From positions 27,117 through 91,116 of the forward strand of contig SVQP01000003.1 of the NCBI GenBank assembly GCA_015065285.1: a stretch of 64,000 nt of DNA. Reading direction: 5' to 3'. Of this stretch, positions 37,078 through 50,272 are shown one piece after another. The notes beneath the pieces were generated by a model. That model was given only the letters and a program-made list of their open reading frames with translations, was not told where the DNA came from and made no database searches. The stretch comes from Oscillospiraceae bacterium (GTDB lineage Bacteria; Bacillota; Clostridia; Oscillospirales; CAG-272). The position numbers and the translations under genes are program-made. Position 1 is the first letter of the stretch, and each line of letters opens with the position of its first letter.

Positions 37078-37324
37078 AGTTGTATCTCCGATTTCAATAG
37101 AATTTGATAGCCATAATTATACATCATAATTATAAACTATTTTTTCATACTTTGCAAGCCCCCACGGCAATTTTGCCCTTGGCGAAACGGAGAAAATGCA
37201 CGTCTTTCCCTCTGTGCCATATGGAGAATTATACCAATGACCGATTTCGGGGCGCTCTTGGTTCGTGCAGCTGCGGATCTGTGAAGCAAAACGAGAATTA
37301 TTTTGTCTTTTTTTGCCAATCTAC

Positions 37325-37353
37325 TTGTCAAGACCTGTGAAAAAAGGTACAAT
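37325..37353 (+). promoter_or_regulatory. Promoter of GH38 gene
   Basis: TTGTCA-17-TACAAT. Confidence 0.6.
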
Positions 37354-37398
37354 AATTGTAGTATGGTAATATTTCATTTCCCGAAAGGATCAAGTCAC

Positions 37399-40300
37399 AT
37401 GAAAAAAGACAAAAGGCTCTACGTTGTATCCAACGCGCATCTGGATACCCAATGGAACTGGACGATTCAGGATACCATCCGTGACTGTGTCAAGAACACG
37501 TTGGCGGACAACTTTGCATTGTTCGAAAAGTATCCTCACTATCACATGAATTTTGAGGGGGCATTCCGCTATGCGCTGGCAAAGGAGTATTATCCCGATC
37601 TGTACGAAAAGCTCAAGGAGTACGTAGCGGAAGGGAAATGGAGCGTTTCGGGCAGCCAATGGGATGCATCTGATACAAACGTGCCCTCGTCCGAGGCGTA
37701 TATGCGTCAGATTTTGCTTGGAAACGGCTTTTTTGAAAAAGAATTCGGCAAAAAGAGCGCGGATATTTTCCTGTCCGACTGCTTTGGCTTCCGCTGGTCC
37801 TTGCCGTCGATTGCCGCGCACATGGGCTTGACCGGTTTCTCTACCCAAAAGCTTTTGTGGGGCGTTGGCACGCCCATCATCCACGAGGATGGCAGCGTCA
37901 CCAAGCCCATGCCCGACAAGGATGCCGTACGTATGGATCTTGGCAGATGGGTAGGCCCCGATGGCAACAGCATCGTAGGCTCGTTTATCTGCAACAACTA
38001 TACCATGAGATTTGAAAGCGACCCCGAAAAGCGTCCGATTCACGATCGTGGTGAATACAGCGACAAGATCGACCACAATGCAAAATATGCCGGCGTACCC
38101 TCCTGCATGCTGTATTTCGGCACGGGCGACTACGGCGGATCTGCTACCGATGAGTCAGCACGCTACCTCAACGACGCCGTTGAGCAGAACGGATCCGATA
38201 AGGAGTTTGAGGTCATTGCAGCCAGCACAGATCAGATTTTCCTGGAAATGACCCCCGAGCAGATTGAAGGCTTGCCCGTATATACAGGCAACCTGCATAT
38301 TCCGCACGGCTTTGGCACACTGACCTCGCATGCCATTAACAAGCGCTGGAACAGAAAGTGCGAGCTGCTTGCCGATTCGGCAGAGCGCGCAGCCTCTGTT
38401 GCCAAGTGGCTTGGCACGGGCAGATATCCGAAAGAGAGAATTGACTTTGCATGGAAGCTGTTCTTGTGGCATCAGTTCCACGATGACCTGCCCGGCACGT
38501 CTATTCTGGATGCTTATCGCTTCAGCTATAACGATTACGTCATTGCGCAGAACGTGCTGGCCGACGAGCTGACCGCCTCGGTTGACGCTGTGGCATCAAG
38601 GCTTTGTACCAACGTTTCGGGACAGCCCGTGATCGTATACAATCCCGTTGCATGCACCCGCAGCGATCTGGCAAGTGCTCCCGTACCTGCCGGTGCAGAA
38701 TATGTACGCGTGTACACAGCGGATGGCAGGGAGGTGCCCTCGCAGATCTCTGTTGCGGGCGGTGAAAGAGTTGTAAAATTCATTGCAAGTGTGGCACCCG
38801 TTTCCTTTACCGTGTTCAACGTAGTTGCATCGGATGCTCCTTGCGCTCTGCCCACCGATCTTTGTGTGTGTGAGAAAAGCCTTGAAAACGGAAGCTATCG
38901 GGTAAGCGTCAATGCACAGGGGCATATCGCATCCGTTTACGACAAGAAGAACTGCCGCGAGTTGCTGTCTGCGCCTTCGTCCCTTGCCAAGAGAGAGGAC
39001 AATAACGAAAAGTGGCCCTCTTGGGAGCTCAAGTACGAGGATACCAAGCTACCCTTTGTGAGTGTGGGCGGTGACGTTACGGTGGAGATTGCCGAGCAGG
39101 GCGCTGCTGCCGTGGCACTCAGAATCACGCACAAGGATGGAGACAGCACCTTTGTGCAGACGGTTCGATTGATTGCGGGAGTGGAGCGCGTGGACGTGGA
39201 GAACGAGGTGGATTGGAGAGAGAAAAAGACCCTTCTCTGTGCGCTCTTCCCACTGAGTGTGACCAATCCCGTAGCTACCTTTGATATCGGTCTTGGCGCA
39301 GAAACGCTGGGCAATACCGATTCCTACCCCTATTTCCAGCATTGCGTGCATCAGTGGGCTGATATGGAGGATGCGGACGGCTCGTTTGGCGTTGCTATTT
39401 TCAACGATTGCAAGTATGGCATGGAAAAGCCGGACGACAACACGCTGCGCCTGACCTTGATTCACACGCCCAAGGCGCGATTCAAGTATATCAGCGGTCA
39501 GGACTGGCAGGATCAGGGCAGAAACATCTTCAAGTATGGCTTTGCTTCGCATGCAGGCAACCGCGATGGCGTGGCAGCAAAGGCAGAGTGCTTCAACAAT
39601 CCGCTCTACGCCTTCACAGCAGACAAGCATGCAGGAGAGGTATATGAGCTGAGCTTTGCAAGCGTGAACAATGGCGAGATAGCCATTCGCTGCATCAAAG
39701 AGGAGCAGAAGGGTAACCGCCTTGTCGTGCGCGTGCAGGAAACTGCAGGTCGCGCACATGCCGACGTAAAGCTTTCGCTGGCAGCAGAGATTGCCAATGC
39801 CACAGAGACCAACGGCTATGAAGAGGGGAACGGTGCCGTAGCACATGACGCGCACTCCTTGACCTTTGATATGACCCCCTTTGCGGTCAAAACGTTTGTC
39901 ATTGAAACAAAGAATGCGCAGGATGCCCTCAAGCTTGGAACGCCCGTGGCGCTCGACTATAATAAGCGCGTGACCACTTCGCGCGACGACTATACTGCAG
40001 GCGAGTTCGGGCAGGGTATCTCAATTCCCGAGGAGCTGCTTGAGAGCACGGTTTATAGCGGTGGCGTAAAGTTTGAGCTTGGCAGTGCAGGTCAGAATAA
40101 TGCTGTGCTTTGTAACGGGCAGAGCGTCAAGCTGCCTGCAGGGACCTCTCGCGTTGTGCTGCTGGCAGCATCGCGCAAGGGCGACGTCAAGGCTACCTTT
40201 GGCGTTGGCGATCAGAGCGTGACGCTCAGGATCAATGATTTCTGCGAAAACGTTGGCGGATGGGATCAGGTGGCTGCAGGCGACGTAGCGTTTATCAAGC

Positions 40301-41190
40301 GCGATGCACTTGCCATCAGCTATTCTCACACGCACGACGTACAGGGTGACCGTCTTTACAAGTTTGCCAATATTTTTGCATACGTGCTTGAAACAAAGGG
40401 CGCGGATCACATCACGCTGCCTGCAGGCGAGCAGATCGTGCTCATGGCTGTCACAGCCTTGACAGGCAACGTCAAGAGCACGCACCCCACCGCACCTCTT
40501 TACGACTTTGTTGCGGAAAATACCGCTCCCACCCATAAGCTGATTGCGGTGGATATGAACGTGGAGGGCGAGTATCACGCAGGCGAAATGGTGCGCGTGG
40601 CAGCGCCTCGCTGCAATCATAACGGCGTGTTTGAGGGCTTTGGCGGCAATGCCGATATCGTATGGCAGGAGGACGTGCAGGCATTGGTTCGTATGGGAGA
40701 TCAGGATGCCACCATTTATCCCGTATTCTCGGAGCTTGGTGAGAACGTAGTGCTGGGCAAGCCCTGCCGTGCAAACAACAGCCGTGCGAAATTCGGTGAG
40801 ATCCCGGAAAACGCGCTCAACGGTGACTGTAAGAGCAAATGGGCAGGAATGGCAGAGCCGGCTGATACCGAAACCGGGCATGCGGCTTGGCTGGAGGTTG
40901 ATATCGGTGAGCTTGTGCCCATCCATGGGTGGTTGGTGCAGCACTGCGGTGAATACGAGGAAAGCGTTGACAACACCGCGGAGTATTTCCTGCAATATAA
41001 GGCTTCCGAGGATGGGGAATGGCTGACTGCCGACGAGGTTCGCAGCAACCGTGAGAATATGACCGTGCGCGAGTTTGCGCCCGTGCAGGCAAGATACGTG
41101 CGCTTGTACGTTACCAGACCCACCCCTCACTGGGATAAGACAGCCCGCATTTATCAGCTGCACGTATACCGCGCACCCGAAAAGAATTGA
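37399..41190 (+). CDS. GH38 alpha-mannosidase-like enzyme with C-terminal F5/8 type C (discoidin) domain
   Basis: NAHLDTQWNWTIQ, LSDCFGFRWSLPSIAAHMGL; C-terminal ALNGDCKSKWAG...WLEVDIGELVPIHGWLV...ARYVRLYV; ATG at 37399. Confidence 0.88.
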   Translation: MKKDKRLYVVSNAHLDTQWNWTIQDTIRDCVKNTLADNFALFEKYPHYHMNFEGAFRYALAKEYYPDLYEKLKEYVAEGKWSVSGSQWDASDTNVPSSEAYMRQILLGNGFFEKEFGKKSADIFLSDCFGFRWSLPSIAAHMGLTGFSTQKLLWGVGTPIIHEDGSVTKPMPDKDAVRMDLGRWVGPDGNSIVGSFICNNYTMRFESDPEKRPIHDRGEYSDKIDHNAKYAGVPSCMLYFGTGDYGGSATDESARYLNDAVEQNGSDKEFEVIAASTDQIFLEMTPEQIEGLPVYTGNLHIPHGFGTLTSHAINKRWNRKCELLADSAERAASVAKWLGTGRYPKERIDFAWKLFLWHQFHDDLPGTSILDAYRFSYNDYVIAQNVLADELTASVDAVASRLCTNVSGQPVIVYNPVACTRSDLASAPVPAGAEYVRVYTADGREVPSQISVAGGERVVKFIASVAPVSFTVFNVVASDAPCALPTDLCVCEKSLENGSYRVSVNAQGHIASVYDKKNCRELLSAPSSLAKREDNNEKWPSWELKYEDTKLPFVSVGGDVTVEIAEQGAAAVALRITHKDGDSTFVQTVRLIAGVERVDVENEVDWREKKTLLCALFPLSVTNPVATFDIGLGAETLGNTDSYPYFQHCVHQWADMEDADGSFGVAIFNDCKYGMEKPDDNTLRLTLIHTPKARFKYISGQDWQDQGRNIFKYGFASHAGNRDGVAAKAECFNNPLYAFTADKHAGEVYELSFASVNNGEIAIRCIKEEQKGNRLVVRVQETAGRAHADVKLSLAAEIANATETNGYEEGNGAVAHDAHSLTFDMTPFAVKTFVIETKNAQDALKLGTPVALDYNKRVTTSRDDYTAGEFGQGISIPEELLESTVYSGGVKFELGSAGQNNAVLCNGQSVKLPAGTSRVVLLAASRKGDVKATFGVGDQSVTLRINDFCENVGGWDQVAAGDVAFIKRDALAISYSHTHDVQGDRLYKFANIFAYVLETKGADHITLPAGEQIVLMAVTALTGNVKSTHPTAPLYDFVAENTAPTHKLIAVDMNVEGEYHAGEMVRVAAPRCNHNGVFEGFGGNADIVWQEDVQALVRMGDQDATIYPVFSELGENVVLGKPCRANNSRAKFGEIPENALNGDCKSKWAGMAEPADTETGHAAWLEVDIGELVPIHGWLVQHCGEYEESVDNTAEYFLQYKASEDGEWLTADEVRSNRENMTVREFAPVQARYVRLYVTRPTPHWDKTARIYQLHVYRAPEKN

Positions 41191-41295
41191 AATCGAGGGA
41201 TTACGTCTTTTTTACAAAGAGCCTTCAATATCCTGAAATAAGATATAACCAAATCGTATGGTAGTATAAATCATCTGATCAATCGGAGGTATCTC

Positions 41296-42804
41296 ATGGG
41301 AAAGCACTATCTTGTGAATGATTCGCTGTTTTACGCTGAAAATGCGTACGTAGCAAAAAATCCGTATCTTGGCATGGAAGCAGAGGACGCACCGCTGCCG
41401 GTCTATGCAAAGGTGAAGGACAGACTGCCAAGCCCTGTATGGGAGGGGCATGGGGATGTGCTGGCATGCTACAACAAGGTGTGGGAAATCGCCTTTTGTA
41501 ATCTGCGCCGTCCAAATGCCGAGGCGGGCTTTGTATCCAATTTCATCGATACGGCTTTTAACGGATACCTGTTTATGTGGGATTCCTCGTTTATTGTCAT
41601 GTTTGGCAGATACGGCTCGCAGGTGTTCAATTTCCAAAAGACCTTGGATAATATGTATTCGCATCAGCACAAGGACGGCTTTATTTGCCGTGAGATCTGC
41701 GAGAGCGAGCCGGGTGAGCAGTTTCAGCGTGACGACCCCGCATCCACGGGCCCCAATATCATGCCGTGGTGCGAGTGGGAATACTACCAGCTGACGGGCG
41801 ACAAAGAGCGTCTTTCGCGCGTGTTTTATCCGCTGCTGGCATATCACAAGTGGCTGCAGCGCAACCGCACTTGGCGCGACGGCAGCTATTGGTCCTGCGG
41901 TCTTGCTTGCGGCATGGATAATCAGCCCCGCGTGGAGAGGGGGTATAGCGACCATTGCTCGCACGGACACGGCATTTGGGTGGATGCTTGTATCCAGATG
42001 GTCATCAGCGGCAAGGTGCTGATCGAGATGGGCAAAATTCTCGGTCACGAGCAGGATACCGAATGGCTTGTCGAGGAGGTAGAAATGCTGAGCGCGCTGA
42101 TCAACGATAAGCTCTGGAGCGAGCAGGATGCGTTTTACTACGATATGTGGCGTTCGGGGCTTTCGGGCGTCAAGTCGATTGGCGCTTACTGGTCGCTGCT
42201 TGCGGACATTGTGCCCGCAGAGCGCCTGCCACGCCTGATCGCACACCTTGAAAATCCTGCCGAGTTCAAAAGACCCCATCGCGTGCCCACGCTGTCTGCC
42301 GATCACCCCGAGTACAACGAGAACGGTGCTTACTGGAAGGGCTCGGTCTGGGCACCCACCAACTACATGGTGCTCAAGGGGCTTGAAAGAGTAGGGTACC
42401 ATGACCTTGCGCACGAAATCGCTTGCAACACTCTGGAAAACGTGGTCAAGGTATACTTGGAAACGGGCACGGTTTGGGAGAATTATTCGCCCGAGCATGC
42501 GCGTCCGGGGCAGCCGGCAAAAGCGGATTTCGTTGGCTGGACGGGTCTTGTCCCGATCGCGGTGCTGATCGAGTACGTGATCGGCATCAAAGCAGACGCC
42601 AAAAATGACGAGATCGTGTGGCGCGTGAATCTGACCGAGCAGCACGGCATTGAGCGCTATCCCTTTGGCGGAAAGAGCGTAGATCTTGTGTGCGCAGCGC
42701 GCCGGAGTGCGACCGACGAGCCGCAGATCACGATCAAGTGCGACACCCCCGTCAAGCTTCGCGTTATCTGGCACAGCGGCGAAAAGGTGATTGAAAGTAA
42801 ATAA
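41296..42804 (+). CDS. (alpha/alpha)6 glycosidase, GH63/GH37-like
   Basis: FMWDSSFIVMFGRYG, GLACGMDNQPR, YWKGSVWAPTNYMVLKGLERVGY, ENYSPE. Confidence 0.8.
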   Translation: MGKHYLVNDSLFYAENAYVAKNPYLGMEAEDAPLPVYAKVKDRLPSPVWEGHGDVLACYNKVWEIAFCNLRRPNAEAGFVSNFIDTAFNGYLFMWDSSFIVMFGRYGSQVFNFQKTLDNMYSHQHKDGFICREICESEPGEQFQRDDPASTGPNIMPWCEWEYYQLTGDKERLSRVFYPLLAYHKWLQRNRTWRDGSYWSCGLACGMDNQPRVERGYSDHCSHGHGIWVDACIQMVISGKVLIEMGKILGHEQDTEWLVEEVEMLSALINDKLWSEQDAFYYDMWRSGLSGVKSIGAYWSLLADIVPAERLPRLIAHLENPAEFKRPHRVPTLSADHPEYNENGAYWKGSVWAPTNYMVLKGLERVGYHDLAHEIACNTLENVVKVYLETGTVWENYSPEHARPGQPAKADFVGWTGLVPIAVLIEYVIGIKADAKNDEIVWRVNLTEQHGIERYPFGGKSVDLVCAARRSATDEPQITIKCDTPVKLRVIWHSGEKVIESK

Positions 42805-42814
42805 TTAAAACTCA

Positions 42815-42842
42815 AAAGGCAGGATCGCAAGATCCTGCCTTT
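42815..42842. terminator. Convergent terminator
   Basis: aaaggcaggatc gcaa gatcctgccttt. Confidence 0.75.
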
Positions 42843-42852
42843 GGTTAATATT

Positions 42853-44139
42853 TTACGGATCAATCAACCCGAAATTCTGAAATGCCAGTAGGTTGTTGAG
42901 ATTGGATTGATAGCTTTGCACGTCGGTGGTATCTGCGTTTTGGATAAACGCCTGCGCCATCTGCTGCTGTCCTGCGCAAAACGCCTCTGCACGGGTAGCC
43001 CCTTCGCTTTTGGCTTTCAGATAGCCGTACAGCAGGGAATACCTGCAATATCCCTGCACGTATTCCTCGCCCGAAAGCATACAGTCGATATCTATGCCGT
43101 GCAGCACAGCCGTGGAGGCAATTGCGCCTACGCACCGCCCACTCAACGCTTTGGTAATAATGTTACCCGACATGCCCTTTGCGGGCTGACAGCCGCCGGT
43201 ATAGAGAAAATACGGCATGCCGTTCAGCTTACGATTGATGGTGTTTGTGGTCAAAACGTCTGTGCAGTAATAATCATATTTGCCTCTGCCGGTAAAAATG
43301 GTTTGCGAGAGCACGTCCTTATTCGCATGGCTTTCGTGAAAGATCTCGCACACGTTTTGCTTGGTCAGCGGAGCCCAATCATCTGCGTTGCAGCTGCCCT
43401 CGAGATCAAGTGTAGATGCATAAACGCCCTCGGTCGTGCCATACAGGTGCACGTTGTCAATGAATTTCCATTCGTCGCGTGCACGCGTCAGAAAGTATCC
43501 CGTGTCGTCAACTGCAACCGAATACCATCCAACGGGAAGAATCGGCGAGGCAACCGATACGTTTACAATATCCTGCTCTTCGACCAGCGCAAGGTATTCG
43601 CGGTATTTGGTGATGAAATCCGCGAAATCTCCCCGCAGCAGCGGCAGACGCACCACGTGCCATGCGGGCATGATGTCAATCTCTTCAAGACTGTGTGCCA
43701 GCTCGTGCGCGCTGATTTTATCCAGTGCATCAGGATCATTGTTAAAGTTAGTATAGAAATAATCAGAGACGAAGTCGTCTTCCTTGAACATTTCATCTTG
43801 CGTTTGCATTTCAAATTCGTGCTTATGTACGAATGCGGGAACAGCATTGGGCGTGCCGAAGATCTGAATGCCGCAGGGGTCATATCCTCGTGCATCGCGC
43901 TCTTGGATCAACAGTCGATATACATCGGCTGCATTTTTTTGCTCGCAAGCATCCACTATGGCGATCTCATAATCGGGATAGAGATCACAAAGCCCCCGGA
44001 TTGCTGAAATATCCTCTTCGGTCATGGCCTTGCTGTTGTAGACAAACAGATAATATGGCTCGGGTGGTTGATCTGCCTTGCAGGATGCAAGACAGAAAAG
44101 CAGGAGCGCGATAAGCAATAGATAACCGATGCGCTTCAT
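42853..44139 (-). CDS. Lipoprotein, possible clan CD (gingipain/caspase-like) cysteine peptidase fold
   Basis: Lipobox LASC; IFHESHAN and YFLYTGGCQPAKGMSGNIITKALSGRCVGAIASTAVLHG resemble the His and Cys strands of C25-type peptidases. Confidence 0.45.
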   Translation of the reverse strand: MKRIGYLLLIALLLFCLASCKADQPPEPYYLFVYNSKAMTEEDISAIRGLCDLYPDYEIAIVDACEQKNAADVYRLLIQERDARGYDPCGIQIFGTPNAVPAFVHKHEFEMQTQDEMFKEDDFVSDYFYTNFNNDPDALDKISAHELAHSLEEIDIMPAWHVVRLPLLRGDFADFITKYREYLALVEEQDIVNVSVASPILPVGWYSVAVDDTGYFLTRARDEWKFIDNVHLYGTTEGVYASTLDLEGSCNADDWAPLTKQNVCEIFHESHANKDVLSQTIFTGRGKYDYYCTDVLTTNTINRKLNGMPYFLYTGGCQPAKGMSGNIITKALSGRCVGAIASTAVLHGIDIDCMLSGEEYVQGYCRYSLLYGYLKAKSEGATRAEAFCAGQQQMAQAFIQNADTTDVQSYQSNLNNLLAFQNFGLIDP

Positions 44140-45077
44140 TGTAAATTCTCCGAAATCTCCTTGATCCAAGGGATTAGCTTCATAAATGCAGTTCCGTTGA
44201 AATCCGAGTTGATGGGTGAGAGATATTCAAGCTCGGTATCACATCCGTTGCCATCCAATAAAGCCTTTAGTTCCACGGATTGCTCGTTGGGGATAGACGG
44301 CGTGTCCGTATAGCAAAACAGCAATACGGGAGCCTTGATGGTCTCGTAAAAGTATTTGGGAGAACGCTTGTCAAGCTCATCCGGCAGCTGCTCCTCGGTG
44401 CAACCAACGTAATACAAGTACATTTCCTTGATCTGCTCGCCTCTGAAATCCACCAAAGCTTGCATATCACAGATGGCGTCTACGACAGCGCAACCTTTAA
44501 TGACTTCCGGATAAGTTGCCGCCAGCTTCAATGCAAACGTAGCACCTGTCACCGCGCCTGCCGTGATGATACAGCGATCGGACAAAAAGGGACAGGCGGT
44601 GCAAATAGACAGCATGGCTTCTGCATCCTGAAAATCTTTTCCGCAAAAATCCTTTTCGCCCTCGTTTTCCTTGGAACCGCGATTGAAAAGGCGCATGACG
44701 ATTACATCTTTTTTGGCAAAATTCTCCACTAAATAGTCTACCTCATAACCGATGTCGGGAAAATACAGCACGCATGGGTAATCCTTTTGCGCGTAGTCCG
44801 TAGGCAGCGCGATCTCAAAATACCGCCCAAGGCCGTCCACCTCAAAATCCACACGGTAGGCAAGCTCGGTCTTGGTACAGTATTGCTCCAGCTTGGTCAC
44901 CGCCGTCACGCCCTCGATCTGCGTCATGTCCTCAACGGTACGCAGGGTGGATTCCGGCTCTGTCGTGGCAGGGGGCTCGGTATCTGTCGTTTGCGTTGTG
45001 TCAGCGGGTGGCTGCTGTGCGTTGCAGGCAACCAACAGCATTGTCAGTAAAAGTAACATGGTTGTCAATCTTTTCAT
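44136..45077 (-). CDS. Lipoprotein with alpha/beta-hydrolase (S9-like) fold, apparently lacking catalytic Ser and His
   Basis: Lipobox LVAC; RCIITAGAVTGATFALKLAATYPEVIKGC (GxSxG replaced by GAVTG); KAPVLLFCYTDTPSIP; no His at expected C-terminal site. Confidence 0.6.
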   Translation of the reverse strand: MKRLTTMLLLLTMLLVACNAQQPPADTTQTTDTEPPATTEPESTLRTVEDMTQIEGVTAVTKLEQYCTKTELAYRVDFEVDGLGRYFEIALPTDYAQKDYPCVLYFPDIGYEVDYLVENFAKKDVIVMRLFNRGSKENEGEKDFCGKDFQDAEAMLSICTACPFLSDRCIITAGAVTGATFALKLAATYPEVIKGCAVVDAICDMQALVDFRGEQIKEMYLYYVGCTEEQLPDELDKRSPKYFYETIKAPVLLFCYTDTPSIPNEQSVELKALLDGNGCDTELEYLSPINSDFNGTAFMKLIPWIKEISENLQ

Positions 45078-46180
45078 TTTGTTTTCCTCCTGAATACGTA
45101 ATAACCGTTTATCACTCCACCATAAGAATAGTCGCCGCTCTTGTGCTCCATGATCAAATAATCTTGACCACGCTCGGTAAATATGCGGTAGTGTTGGGCA
45201 AATTCCATTGCTACGTCCAGTACCAAGCCGGCGGAGTATCTTAGCCCTTTTTGGTACATTCCGCCGTTCAGTCTGCGTGTTTGCTGACATATTCCGCGGG
45301 GGTAGAATTGCATATCCACGATCATCAATTCGCTCTCCCAATATTTGCGCTGACTGTCGAATTGATCGGGAGTGTGCACGAGATCCACGGTTTCCCAATC
45401 ACCAAGCACGCGTTGGTCGGCAACGTACGGAATGTCGACGTTGTCGCGACCGATGCGCGTTTCGCGCTCGGTGTACTCCTTTGTGTCCACTTGCTTATAA
45501 ATGAGAACCTTGCGTTCTTGTTCGCCCTTTGCAAAAATATCCACCATCCAGTCGATCTCCATATATGTTGTTTCTTTGACGGTAAAGATGCGATATGCAT
45601 TGGGAACGATCACGTTAAAGTACGGCATCATGTAATACAAAAAGCCCTTGCTCCAAAAATACATCCACACGTGGCTGCCGCCCGGAAGAAAATATATGTG
45701 CTCCAAAAGCGCATCCTCCCGAATTAAGGTATCCTCATTATCGAAGGCTTGCTCCGGCTTCATATCACCGCAATACATCCACTTTCCGATCACGCGCGGA
45801 TCATGTTCAAAAGGCATCTGAAGTATTTGTTGAGTCAAGGGCAATACGCCCGGCTGTGTATTTCCGCAGAACTCATCGATCTGACCGACCTGATGATGCT
45901 TTTGATGAATACCCTCCAGAATGGCTTGCTTTTTGTTTCGATAGATGCGGCATTGTTCTGTTGGAGAGCAGGCAAGAAACTGCTTGATCTCGTCAAGAGA
46001 GAAGTCTAACTGCTTGAGCTGCTCGATCAGCTGAAAGGTTTTGATTTTATCTTGGCTATAGTAACGGTAGCCCGAGTCCGGATCGATATAGTCAGCGCAG
46101 AATACACCGATCTGATCGTAGTAGCGCAGCGTTTGCACGCTCGCCCCGCACACCTTGGCAAATTCTCCGATTTTCAGCAT
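45074..46180 (-). CDS. MerR-family regulator with C-terminal duplicated lipocalin-like sensor region
   Basis: MLKIGEFAKVCGASVQTLRYYDQIGVFCADYIDPDSGYRYY; C-terminal VIGKWMYCGDM... and VLGDWETVDLV... modules. Confidence 0.85.
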   Translation of the reverse strand: MLKIGEFAKVCGASVQTLRYYDQIGVFCADYIDPDSGYRYYSQDKIKTFQLIEQLKQLDFSLDEIKQFLACSPTEQCRIYRNKKQAILEGIHQKHHQVGQIDEFCGNTQPGVLPLTQQILQMPFEHDPRVIGKWMYCGDMKPEQAFDNEDTLIREDALLEHIYFLPGGSHVWMYFWSKGFLYYMMPYFNVIVPNAYRIFTVKETTYMEIDWMVDIFAKGEQERKVLIYKQVDTKEYTERETRIGRDNVDIPYVADQRVLGDWETVDLVHTPDQFDSQRKYWESELMIVDMQFYPRGICQQTRRLNGGMYQKGLRYSAGLVLDVAMEFAQHYRIFTERGQDYLIMEHKSGDYSYGGVINGYYVFRRKTK

Positions 46181-46210
46181 GTTTTCACCTTCCTCTTACT
46201 CGTTATCTTT

Positions 46211-46241
46211 ATTATAACATTATAGTTAACTATAGAGTCAA
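46211..46241 (-). promoter_or_regulatory. MerR-type promoter/operator
   Basis: minus strand TTGACT-[CTATAGTTAACTATAATGT, 19 bp]-TATAAT with perfect palindrome TATAGTTAACTATA. Confidence 0.88.
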
Positions 46242-46355
46242 GGACTTTTTTCAAAAATTTGCAGATTTCATCTTTCTCAGGGCAGAGGACAGTCCGGGGC
46301 GATTGACGGGGGTGAGAAATTCACGGAACGAATGTGCAAACCATGAGGAAAAATG

Positions 46356-46384
46356 TGGACAAGCCCCCGAAGATATGGTATAAT
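46356..46384 (+). promoter_or_regulatory. Promoter of metallophosphoesterase gene
   Basis: TGGACA-17-TATAAT. Confidence 0.55.
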
Positions 46385-46413
46385 GAATGCAGAAGCTTTG
46401 TAAGGAGGCAGGT

Positions 46414-47238
46414 ATGAACGTTATCAGGCAAACACTTGCCGTGGGGGCAGAGAAGCCCTTTCGGGCACTCCATATTTCGGACACACACCTGACTTATGCC
46501 GATGCGCGCGACGGACAGCGCAAGGTGGATCTGGTCGCCTGGCGTCTGCCGTCCTTTCCGTATGCCGAGCAGATGCTGGCAGAGGCGGGAGATCTGGCAA
46601 ATGAGCTTGGCGTGCCGATTCTGCACACGGGTGATTTGATCGATTACGTATCCTTGGCAAACTTAGAGGCGGTCACGCGTTTTACAGCGGCACACGACGT
46701 ATTTATGGCAACGGGGAATCACGAGTTTTCCTTGTACGTCGGAGAAGCCAAGGAGGACGCGGCTTATCGCAACCAAAGCTTGCCCCGGGTGCAGGCTTGC
46801 TTTGCAAACGACATTCGCATGAGCTCGCGCGAAATCGAGGGCGTCAATTTCGTGGCTCTTGACAACGGCTATTATCTCTTTGAGCCGGAGCAACTGGCAT
46901 TTTTGCAGCAGCAGGTACAAAAGGGATTGCCCATTGTGCTGATGATGCACACACCGCTTTATGAGCAGCCGCTTTACGATATGATCATGAAGGTCACCCC
47001 CTGCGCATACCTTGCGGGAGTGCCCGAGCCGCTGATGCGCTGCTATCCACCCGAGCGCTACGAGCAGCAGTTGGCGGACGAGGTGACACTGCAGACCATG
47101 GAATATATTGCCGCGCAGCCGCTGATCAAGGCGATCTTAGCGGGGCATTTACACCGCGAGTATCAAGGATGGTATGCCGGTCGCATTCCGCAATTCGTGA
47201 CAGGCTGCACAAGCGCGCGTTTGATTGAATTTGTATAA
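46414..47238 (+). CDS. Metallophosphoesterase
   Basis: ALHISDTHL, LHTGDLIDY, MATGNHEF, AILAGHLHREY. Confidence 0.85.
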   Translation: MNVIRQTLAVGAEKPFRALHISDTHLTYADARDGQRKVDLVAWRLPSFPYAEQMLAEAGDLANELGVPILHTGDLIDYVSLANLEAVTRFTAAHDVFMATGNHEFSLYVGEAKEDAAYRNQSLPRVQACFANDIRMSSREIEGVNFVALDNGYYLFEPEQLAFLQQQVQKGLPIVLMMHTPLYEQPLYDMIMKVTPCAYLAGVPEPLMRCYPPERYEQQLADEVTLQTMEYIAAQPLIKAILAGHLHREYQGWYAGRIPQFVTGCTSARLIEFV

Positions 47239-47251
47239 AAGAGGTGCGAAT

Positions 47252-49333
47252 ATGAAACTGACCGCTACCAAACAATATCACTCCACACCCATCAGCGAAA
47301 AGCTTGCCTCGAATTTTATTGAGCTGGGCTACGGGCTGCAGGTGGAGGGCATGATTGCCGAGCTGTTTTTTAACCGCAGCTTTGAGCCGTTTTATCCGTA
47401 TCGATTGATCAACAAGCTCTGGTACGACCTGCTGGAGGACGAAAACGACCACTCCTCGCGCTGTGAAACCGACTGGCGCGTGTTTGACTGGTACCACTCC
47501 TCATACGAGCACAATGCGTGGTTTGCGTTTCCCGGTACGGCGGGACATCAGCCAATAGAGGATGATTCCACCTTTGTCATTGAGCACTCTCCCATGGCGG
47601 ACGTGCATATTGCCATTGTCAAGGGTGGCTGCCACGGTGAGTATGCCATGCAGGTCATCAACGACTCGGATGCGCACGGTGGACTTGCGCAGGACGGCAA
47701 ATATTGCTTTACAGACGTGAAATACACCTTCAATGGCAAGATCCGTCGCACGAGTGGAGATCCCGCACTGCAGATCGCCATCTACCGTGAGGGCAGCGTG
47801 AGCGACCCCGTGGTGACCTGCCCGCTTGGCACGGTGGGGGATGACTATACAAAGGTGCAGGCTGAATTTTCTGTTCCCGAGCAGGGAAGATATACCTTTG
47901 CACTGTTGTTGCCACCGCACACAAGCGTGCTGTGCGATGATTTTTCGCTGCTTCCCGATGATGCCGTCTGCCGCATGAAAAAGAGCGCGGTGGAGGCGGG
48001 GGCGTACGTTGCCCCTGCAGTGATCCGTTGGCCGGGTGGCTGCTTTGCATCCTTTTATAACTGGCGCGACGGTGTGGGTGAGTACCGCCCGCCCATGAAA
48101 TCCTATTTCTGGGGCGGCTATCAGTATAACGACGTAGGCACCGACGAGCTTGCCTCTTATGCCGAGGCGGTGGGTGCTGAGTCCATGATCTGCGTCAACG
48201 TGCACCATCCCTTCAAGCGGTACTTTGAGTATGTGCCGCCCGAATCGTTGGATAAGGATCCGAATGATCCCACCATCCACGCAGCGCCCCACGGCAGAGA
48301 TCTTCCATGCTTTGCGGATATTGCAAGGGGCGCGCAAGAAGCAGCCGCATGGGTGGAATACTGCAATGGTGACGAGAGCACCGAGGGCGGTCGCGCCCGT
48401 ATTGCCAATGGTCGAAAAAAACCCTACAACGTGAAATACTGGGAGATGGACAACGAGGTGCACCGTTGGTTTACTCCCGAAGAATACGCGCGCACTTGCG
48501 TGCTGTATGCCAAGACCATGAAGGCGGTTGACCCCACCATCAAGATCGGCATTGACACCTACAGCTACAGCCTTGAGGCGCTGGAGCGCATGGTTGCCAT
48601 TGCGGGCAACGACATTGATTTTATTGCCGACCGCGGAAGTAGCGAGGATACGCTGCAAAAAAAGCTGGCGATCATTTGCGCATATAATCAGCAGCAGGGC
48701 ACCGGCATCCGCTATTGCAATACCGAGTGGTTGCCGCTCAGAGGAACCGATGCCTACAATATGGTGCCAAGAGGGGATAATAAGCTGACCAAATGCTATA
48801 TGTTCAGTAAATGGAAGTACGCGCTGGATGCCGCATCCGTTCTGATGATGTGGCAAAGGTATGGGCAGGTCATCGACTTTGTCAATTTCAATAACCTTGC
48901 CAATACGCATGCGCAATCTGCAATAGAGACCCCCAAGGAGGGCGCGTATCCTACGGCAGCGGGTATGATGCTGCACCGTTTTGCAAACACCTGTGCATAC
49001 AGAACGCTGGTGATCGATGGGTATAATCCCGACTGTGACGACATGCTGCAGGCACAGTTGTCGATCAACCGGGACGGGACGGCACTTGTACTCAACATCC
49101 TCAACAGAGGAGAGGAGGATGGAGAGGTAGTGCTGGATCTCGGTGTATTTACCCCCGTCTGCGGTACCCACGGTGGAGTGATGCTCTGCGCTGATAGTCT
49201 GGCTGCTATGAATACGTTGCATGACAGACCAATCGCGGAAAAATCGATTTCCCTGTGTCTAACGAACAGCGTTGCAACGGTTGCGGCTCCCGCAAGATCC
49301 TTTGCGGAGTACGTCATTCCGCTTACCGAATAA
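47252..49333 (+). CDS. GH51-like alpha-L-arabinofuranosidase
   Basis: SNFIELGYGLQVEGMIAELFFNRSFEP; RWPGGCFASFYNWRDGVG; KYWEMDNEVH (acid/base NE-type); CNTEW. Confidence 0.82.
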   Translation: MKLTATKQYHSTPISEKLASNFIELGYGLQVEGMIAELFFNRSFEPFYPYRLINKLWYDLLEDENDHSSRCETDWRVFDWYHSSYEHNAWFAFPGTAGHQPIEDDSTFVIEHSPMADVHIAIVKGGCHGEYAMQVINDSDAHGGLAQDGKYCFTDVKYTFNGKIRRTSGDPALQIAIYREGSVSDPVVTCPLGTVGDDYTKVQAEFSVPEQGRYTFALLLPPHTSVLCDDFSLLPDDAVCRMKKSAVEAGAYVAPAVIRWPGGCFASFYNWRDGVGEYRPPMKSYFWGGYQYNDVGTDELASYAEAVGAESMICVNVHHPFKRYFEYVPPESLDKDPNDPTIHAAPHGRDLPCFADIARGAQEAAAWVEYCNGDESTEGGRARIANGRKKPYNVKYWEMDNEVHRWFTPEEYARTCVLYAKTMKAVDPTIKIGIDTYSYSLEALERMVAIAGNDIDFIADRGSSEDTLQKKLAIICAYNQQQGTGIRYCNTEWLPLRGTDAYNMVPRGDNKLTKCYMFSKWKYALDAASVLMMWQRYGQVIDFVNFNNLANTHAQSAIETPKEGAYPTAAGMMLHRFANTCAYRTLVIDGYNPDCDDMLQAQLSINRDGTALVLNILNRGEEDGEVVLDLGVFTPVCGTHGGVMLCADSLAAMNTLHDRPIAEKSISLCLTNSVATVAAPARSFAEYVIPLTE

Positions 49334-49579: not shown

Positions 49580-50272
49580 ATGATGGATACCAAAATTCTT
49601 GTTGTGGATGACGACAACAACATCAGCGAATTACTTAAGGTGTATTTCACCAACGAGGGCTATGAGGTCAAGACCGCGTCTGACGGTGTAGAGGGCATCA
49701 GCTATTTCAAAATGTATGAGCCCGATATCGTGTTGCTTGACATTATGCTGCCCAAAAAGGATGGCTGGCAGGTTTGCCGCGAGATCCGAGAAATGTCCTC
49801 CAAGCCCATCATCATGATCACTGCGAAGGGTGAGGTATTTGATAAGGTACTCGGTCTTGAGCTGGGTGCGGATGACTTTTTGGTCAAGCCCTTTGATATG
49901 AAGGAGCTGTCCGCGCGCGTCAAGGCAGTGCTGCGCCGCTATCAGGCACACACCAATCAGGATGACGACGAGGTCGTCAAGTTTGAAAATATTGAGATCA
50001 GCCGCCAGAAGTATGAGCTCAAGCTCAAGGGCAAGAGCGTGGATATTCCTCCCAAGGAGCTGGAGCTGCTGTATTTCCTGGCTTCTAATTACAACCGCGT
50101 ATTCACTCGCGACCAGCTGCTGGACAAGGTCTGGGGCTTTGACTATCTGGGCGACTCCAGAACGGTTGACGTGCACGTCAAGAGACTGCGCGAAAAGCTG
50201 GAGGGCGCTTCGGATAAATGGATTCTGAAAACCGTCTGGGGCGTAGGCTATAAGTTTGAGCTGTTAGGCTGA
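49580..50272 (+). CDS. OmpR-family response regulator
   Basis: ILVVDDDNNISELLK, DIVLLDIMLPKKDGW, winged-helix C-terminus GVGYKF. Confidence 0.95.
   Translation: MMDTKILVVDDDNNISELLKVYFTNEGYEVKTASDGVEGISYFKMYEPDIVLLDIMLPKKDGWQVCREIREMSSKPIIMITAKGEVFDKVLGLELGADDFLVKPFDMKELSARVKAVLRRYQAHTNQDDDEVVKFENIEISRQKYELKLKGKSVDIPPKELELLYFLASNYNRVFTRDQLLDKVWGFDYLGDSRTVDVHVKRLREKLEGASDKWILKTVWGVGYKFELLG

Follow-up and report, generated by a model that had tools for sequence, protein, structure and literature searches.

The window analysed here, i.e. the whole stretch of 64,000 nt from an Oscillospiraceae bacterium (CAG-272; assembly GCA_015065285.1, contig SVQP01000003.1, positions 27,117-91,116, forward strand), belongs to a gut Clostridia genome and contains three minus-strand genes, each with an open frame, which are joined by two 4-bp ATGA overlaps and have one promoter in front (Table 1). 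They encode a MerR-family regulator (P0001) and two proteins with the lipobox motifs LVAC (P0002) and LASC (P0003, the product of gene 3), and a terminator-like hairpin lies directly after gene 3. The cassette is also present in related gut bacteria; in the following, G-numbers denote the genomes of relatives and L-numbers the sequences of fetched gene neighbourhoods.

Table 1. Features of the three-gene operon, with positions given in the window.
Feature	Position	Strand	Basis or remark
Promoter: -35 TTGACT (46241-46236), 19-bp spacer, -10 TATAAT (46216-46211)	46211..46241	-	unique in genome; same layout before 11 related MerR genes
Putative MerR operator, perfect 14-bp palindrome TATAGTTAACTATA within spacer	46221..46234	.	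core AGTTAACT in most homologous promoters
MerR-family regulator P0001 (368 aa)	45074..46180	-	MerR HTH at residues 3-78, Pfam MerR_1 E 2.7e-15
Sensor repeat 1 of P0001 (residues 122-245)	45446..45817	-	hhalign against repeat 2
Sensor repeat 2 of P0001 (residues 246-368)	45077..45445	-	hhalign against repeat 1
4-bp ATGA overlap, regulator/hydrolase	45074..45077	-	same overlap in L091
P0002 (313 aa), lipoprotein pseudo-hydrolase, probable alpha/beta-hydrolase (S9/BD-FAE-like) fold	44136..45077	-	V176/T259/S291 at Ser/Asp/His positions
4-bp ATGA overlap, hydrolase/gene 3	44136..44139	-	same overlap in L091
P0003 (428 aa), lipoprotein, candidate clan CD-like cysteine peptidase	42853..44139	-	His271 and Cys317 family-invariant; no database family
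Terminator-like hairpin AAAGGCAGGATC-TTGC-GATCCTGCCTTT, T-rich tail	42815..42842	-	-21.3 kcal/mol, z = -5.95

A 19-bp spacer containing a palindrome is the hallmark of MerR regulation (PMC11049809, PMC1526738), and the TTGACT-N19-TATAAT promoter of the operon, with its palindrome inside the spacer, is of this type; a first-pass annotation of this DNA had already pointed to 19-bp spacers. When both strands of the 64 kb were scanned, it was the sole 19-bp-spaced site with at least 11 of 12 matches, and a search for the operator pattern that tolerated at most 3 mismatches gave a single match in the 2.1-Mb, 76%-complete genome, in which the backwards control of the pattern gave zero matches. The same promoter layout was found upstream of 11 related MerR genes; most of the homologous promoters keep the core, and the palindrome measures 22 bp in L025 and 16 bp in L029 and L092. 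Because the operator is unique in the genome and a strong hairpin stands at the operon end, the transcription unit is regarded as self-contained. In these respects the first-pass annotation, which had described a self-contained operon of three overlapping minus-strand genes behind one promoter, was reproduced in full, including all coordinates and both overlaps.

The N-terminus of P0001 matched the Pfam MerR HTH profile PF13411 above the cut-off, and for the HTH and linker the closest entries of known structure were the multidrug-responsive MerRs EcmrR (E 4.9e-25), MtaN and BmrR. The two repeats of the C-terminal sensor were aligned to each other by hhalign with an E value of 1.9e-16 and a probability of 98.7; judged by this alignment, the sensor is a genuine tandem duplication. 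Of the initially described 'duplicated lipocalin-like sensor', the duplication was retained and the lipocalin likeness is a possibility only, the double sensor being without a Pfam family match and the lipocalin hint consisting of one weak PDB match (4lqz, E 0.036). Longer MerRs of 508-532 aa (L031:5325-6851, L032:7067-8614, L033:5126-6676, L034:6286-7884), which are located apart from cassettes and keep a degenerate 19-bp promoter, carry the identical type of double sensor after an extra, possibly GyrI-like middle region.

P0002 alone scored below the Pfam cut-offs for alpha/beta-hydrolases; its profile matched hydrolases in the PDB at E 5.9e-5, members of its family match S9/BD-FAE, and those fused to BlaR1-type receptors (see below) match S9 at E 1.5e-10. 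In an alignment to homologues, V176, T259 and S291 occupy the positions at which an active-type outgroup (L083-L089, no MerR nearby) has intact Ser, Asp and His, in agreement with the earlier description of P0002 as a probable pseudoenzyme. The catalytic Asp and His are missing throughout the operon clade; the nucleophile Ser is retained in L026-L029, L072, L074, L077, L079 and L082 and lost in P0002, L073, L075, L076, L078 and L080, with a Val in the window and G480. By this alignment, the operon clade of the hydrolase is a pseudoenzyme clade. Some of its hydrolases stand alone, without cassette partners (L072, L074, L075). In the hydrolase tree, P0002, the G480 protein and a fusion protein of G601, the latter a long branch, cluster together (supports 96/84 and 100/99), apart from the group partnered with HEXXH proteins; the hydrolase type therefore tracks the partner type.

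For P0003, searches of Pfam, NCBIfam and the PDB yielded zero significant matches, and C25 and clan CD profiles likewise gave no significant match. AlphaFold predictions from a single sequence and from four sequences were of low confidence (mean pLDDT 38 and 43), with uninformative Foldseek matches. An hhalign comparison of the gene 3 family with the C25 protein of G001 aligned the catalytic regions in register (His to His, Cys to Cys) and was not significant, 1-2 of 60 shuffles scoring equally. Further C25 proteins were found neither in 150 genomes of the phylum nor in plasmids, and among 18 genomes of the family of G001 only G001 itself has one. The gingipain (C25) or clan CD fold suggested for gene 3 at first pass was thus not confirmed. 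Within the gene 3 family, His271 is the sole invariant His, and Cys317, 46 residues further on, is likewise invariant; the His lies in a GHG context and the Cys in an LxxxC context in L092, L093, L103 and L104. L103 in addition has a weak match (E 0.11) over the His/Cys region to CHAT, which we take to belong to clan CD. This His/Cys pattern suggests a clan CD peptidase as a candidate identity. Since SHA replaces the canonical GHG in P0003 and L091, the window copy might be inactive too.

Recurrence was assessed at several levels of relatedness. Full-length homologues of P0001 were present in 7 same-family genomes besides its own (97 relatives searched), the hydrolase profile found members in 23 of 395 family genomes, and the gene 3 profile found 6 clear and 2 marginal members in family genomes (8 at a loose threshold). 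Single-sequence searches with P0003 of the order, of genome contigs and of viral contigs gave nothing beyond its own genome, and an order-wide profile search returned the window genome alone. The window and G480 (L073/L091), which belongs to another genus, share the complete arrangement of MerR, hydrolase and gene 3, down to the two 4-bp overlaps and the promoter with its 19-bp spacer; at 58% identity between the two gene 3 products, this recurrence of gene order, overlaps and promoter is above chance. Gene 3 adjoins the MerR gene in 4 of 5 assessable genomes, far beyond chance by a rough estimate, and one homologue (L093) has no neighbouring regulator. The check by gene neighbourhoods proposed at first pass thus showed homologues together in other genomes, so that the refuting outcome named there, homologues that never co-occur, did not arise.

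The arrangements differ in their cargo. In G742 (L077/L092) the order is MerR, gene 3, membrane protein, hydrolase; in G631 (L103) gene 3 directly follows MerR; and in G601 (L080) the hydrolase is fused to gene 3, which continues in L104 at the end of a contig. Four genera (G236, G403, G416 and G321; L026-L029) have MerR and hydrolase followed by a lipoprotein with a HEYVH..E motif of gluzincin type, G285 (L076) has MerR, hydrolase and a small membrane protein of a zinc-ribbon family, and G395 (L024) and G417 (L025) have MerR with small membrane proteins only. The regulators of all these arrangements have the 19-bp promoter. For G395, a same-genus species, the flanks of the locus match those of the window, with an MGH1/GH63-like protein of 89% identity, an arabinofuranosidase-like protein of 76% and a response regulator of 99%; its regulator, 65% identical to P0001, is present in two tandem copies with membrane-protein cargo and the same promoter type, and no traces of P0002 or P0003 were detected in the locus region. 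As flanks and regulator are kept and the lipoproteins are absent, the cargo was exchanged or lost at a fixed site. The modularity of the cassette, in which relatives have replaced gene 3 or all of the cargo, is a point absent from the first-pass annotation. The G601 fusion (L080:1-1836 and L104:1-522) is a single lipoprotein interrupted by the contig end, and the gene before it combines a DUF1700-like N-terminus with a membrane domain common to the L024 and L077 cargo. The response regulator (window 49580-50272) stands out by its 99% identity to that of G395, compared with 65-89% for the flanking genes.

In G669 (L079) and G682 (L082), a BlaI-type repressor lies near a receptor whose M56 core (Pfam E 1e-33 to 1e-34) is followed C-terminally by the hydrolase domain, in which Ser is retained and Asp and His are gone. 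BlaR1 carries its extracellular sensor at this C-terminal position (PMC9834060). An M56 receptor or BlaI repressor is absent from the window operon and was found in the relatives L079 and L082 only. Three neighbourhoods (L079:2191-5590, L082:1-3469, L081:2047-4343) pair a BlaI-type repressor with an M56/BlaR1-type receptor that bears an alpha/beta-hydrolase domain and no penicillin-binding sensor; the receptor frame of L081 is interrupted by a stop. Because the triad is lost and the domain is fused to a BlaR1-type receptor at the sensor position, we infer a role of P0002-type pseudo-hydrolases in binding or recognition, not catalysis.

Taken together, these data are consistent with an autoregulated, ligand-triggered envelope-response cassette, an account that we consider evenly poised between right and wrong as a whole. 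Given its membership in the MerR family, the activator with its two-repeat C-terminal sensor would occupy its own 19-bp-spacer promoter, and binding of a small molecule to the sensor would untwist the promoter, so that the regulator and the two lipoproteins are co-produced. Both lipoproteins, as suggested by their lipoboxes, would work outside the membrane. There the pseudo-hydrolase, with its scaffold kept and its catalytic triad gone, may serve as the binding or recognition subunit, and a partner, predicted to be a peptidase from its sequence motifs (clan CD type in the window, HEXXH type in relatives), may act on the recognised target. The regulatory anatomy of the cassette is well supported; the biochemical roles of the proteins we infer. 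Because in L024 and L025 the regulator drives membrane proteins unrelated to these, the molecule that it senses may have no connection with the lipoproteins. The lone hydrolases, the gene 3 homologue without a neighbouring regulator and the lack of a peptidase family match for gene 3 likewise speak against the account.

A rival reading is an antibiotic or bacteriocin response, in which the sensor would bind a drug-like hydrophobic molecule in the manner of BmrR or EcmrR and the lipoproteins would sequester or cleave an antimicrobial peptide at the surface. The kinship with multidrug-responsive MerRs speaks for it, as does the double sensor behind an extra middle region in L031-L034; the patchy spread of hydrolase and gene 3 and the exchange of cargo at one locus would suit a competition trait, and the BlaR1-type fusion ties the hydrolase fold to an antibiotic-sensing receptor family. 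However, the similarity to drug-sensing MerRs spans the HTH and linker and not the sensor, the operon is without a transporter or known resistance gene, and PADLOC yielded only a weak MerR-type HTH match, so that we consider this reading rather unlikely. PADLOC likewise gave no support to the idea of a defence system. The operon could also be real with a gene 3 product that is no peptidase, of unrelated or dead fold, in which case the two lipoproteins would work as a pair solely in binding or scaffolding. A dead partner hydrolase, SHA in place of GHG in P0003 and L091, and the failure of gene 3 to match a peptidase significantly all fit such a pair; yet the invariant His and Cys, their GHG and LxxxC contexts in other members, the weak CHAT match of L103 and the HEXXH..E protein filling the same operon slot in four genera point to a peptidase, and on balance we doubt that gene 3 is none.

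The surroundings of the operon raise one more possibility, namely that it belongs as an accessory to the neighbouring locus for carbohydrate degradation, where it would sense a product of glycan breakdown and assist in glycoprotein processing. It is surrounded by glycoside hydrolase genes, and the equivalent locus of G395 likewise holds the regulator. We nevertheless judge this quite improbable: G395 keeps the glycosidases (76-89% identical) without the lipoproteins, the sampled flanks of other genera contain no recurrent glycosidase neighbours, and the operator occurs a single time in the genome. The synteny with G395 accordingly weakened the cassette as a candidate part of the glycosidase locus. 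This locus (window 37303-49333) comprises a GH38 alpha-mannosidase with an F5/8C domain, an MGH1/GH63-like hydrolase, a metallophosphatase and an arabinofuranosidase-like protein.

With respect to known systems, the cassette shares with BmrR, EcmrR, MtaN and TipA the MerR HTH and linker, a palindromic operator in a 19-bp spacer and a variable C-terminal ligand domain, but its sensor consists of tandem repeats of ~125 residues without Pfam match, not of GyrI or TipAS, and its cargo of lipoproteins, not efflux pumps. It resembles BlaR1/BlaI (MecR1/MecI) through the relatives L079, L082 and L081, in which the hydrolase domain sits on an M56 receptor beside a BlaI-type repressor at the place of the beta-lactam sensor of BlaR1; in the window, however, the hydrolase is a separate lipoprotein under a MerR, and the alpha/beta-hydrolase fold, its probable one, is different from the penicillin-binding fold. 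With C25 (gingipains) and clan CD, the gene 3 family has in common a His before a Cys, with hydrophobic stretches preceding them, a GHG motif in the majority of homologues and, by eye, a similar two-part layout, although this comparison is one of sequence motifs, the sequence match is not significant and the window protein has SHA instead of GHG. Weak profile matches across the core and the nucleophile-elbow region link P0002 to S9/BD-FAE alpha/beta-hydrolases, from which it differs in the substitution of all three catalytic residues.

Literature searches, incomplete in coverage, on MerR with lipocalin, on lipoproteins of clan CD and on operons with a pseudo-hydrolase returned nothing relevant, in line with the first-pass statement that a described system of such composition was not recognised. 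One-component regulation by MerR and the hydrolase fold are of known kinds; for the composition, the double sensor, the exchange of partners and the fusion of BlaR1 type, the searches turned up no description, and because of the incomplete coverage their novelty amounts to absence of evidence only. We tentatively, and with some doubt, propose that modular one-component cassettes of this kind, serving envelope responses, form a class not described so far. Its constant part would be the MerR with the double-repeat sensor together with the promoter; its variable part would be the surface effectors (small membrane proteins, or a pseudo-hydrolase paired with a HEXXH or clan CD-like peptidase), and the pseudo-hydrolase would be a new extracellular recognition domain that elsewhere forms a BlaR1-type ectodomain. 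The fusion of hydrolase and peptidase and the exchange of peptidase type under one regulator suggest that pseudoenzyme and peptidase are a functional surface pair, and the reuse of the pseudoenzyme as a BlaR1-type receptor ectodomain suggests that BlaR1-type signalling extends past beta-lactams. As the sensor is not recognised by the libraries, the operator is conserved and candidate outputs are clear, the ligand can be sought by a simple promoter reporter.

Two membrane protein families recur among the cargo. One, of ~190 residues and mostly with a C-terminal zinc ribbon, lies beside cassettes controlled by MerR or by BlaI/BlaR1 (L026:5591-6163, L025:7273-7902, L076:3165-3599, L079:4596-5168, L081:473-1341), and the other, polytopic and with an LPxExxRF motif, is found under the same regulators (L024:6160-6771, L025:5982-7330, L081:1369-2037).
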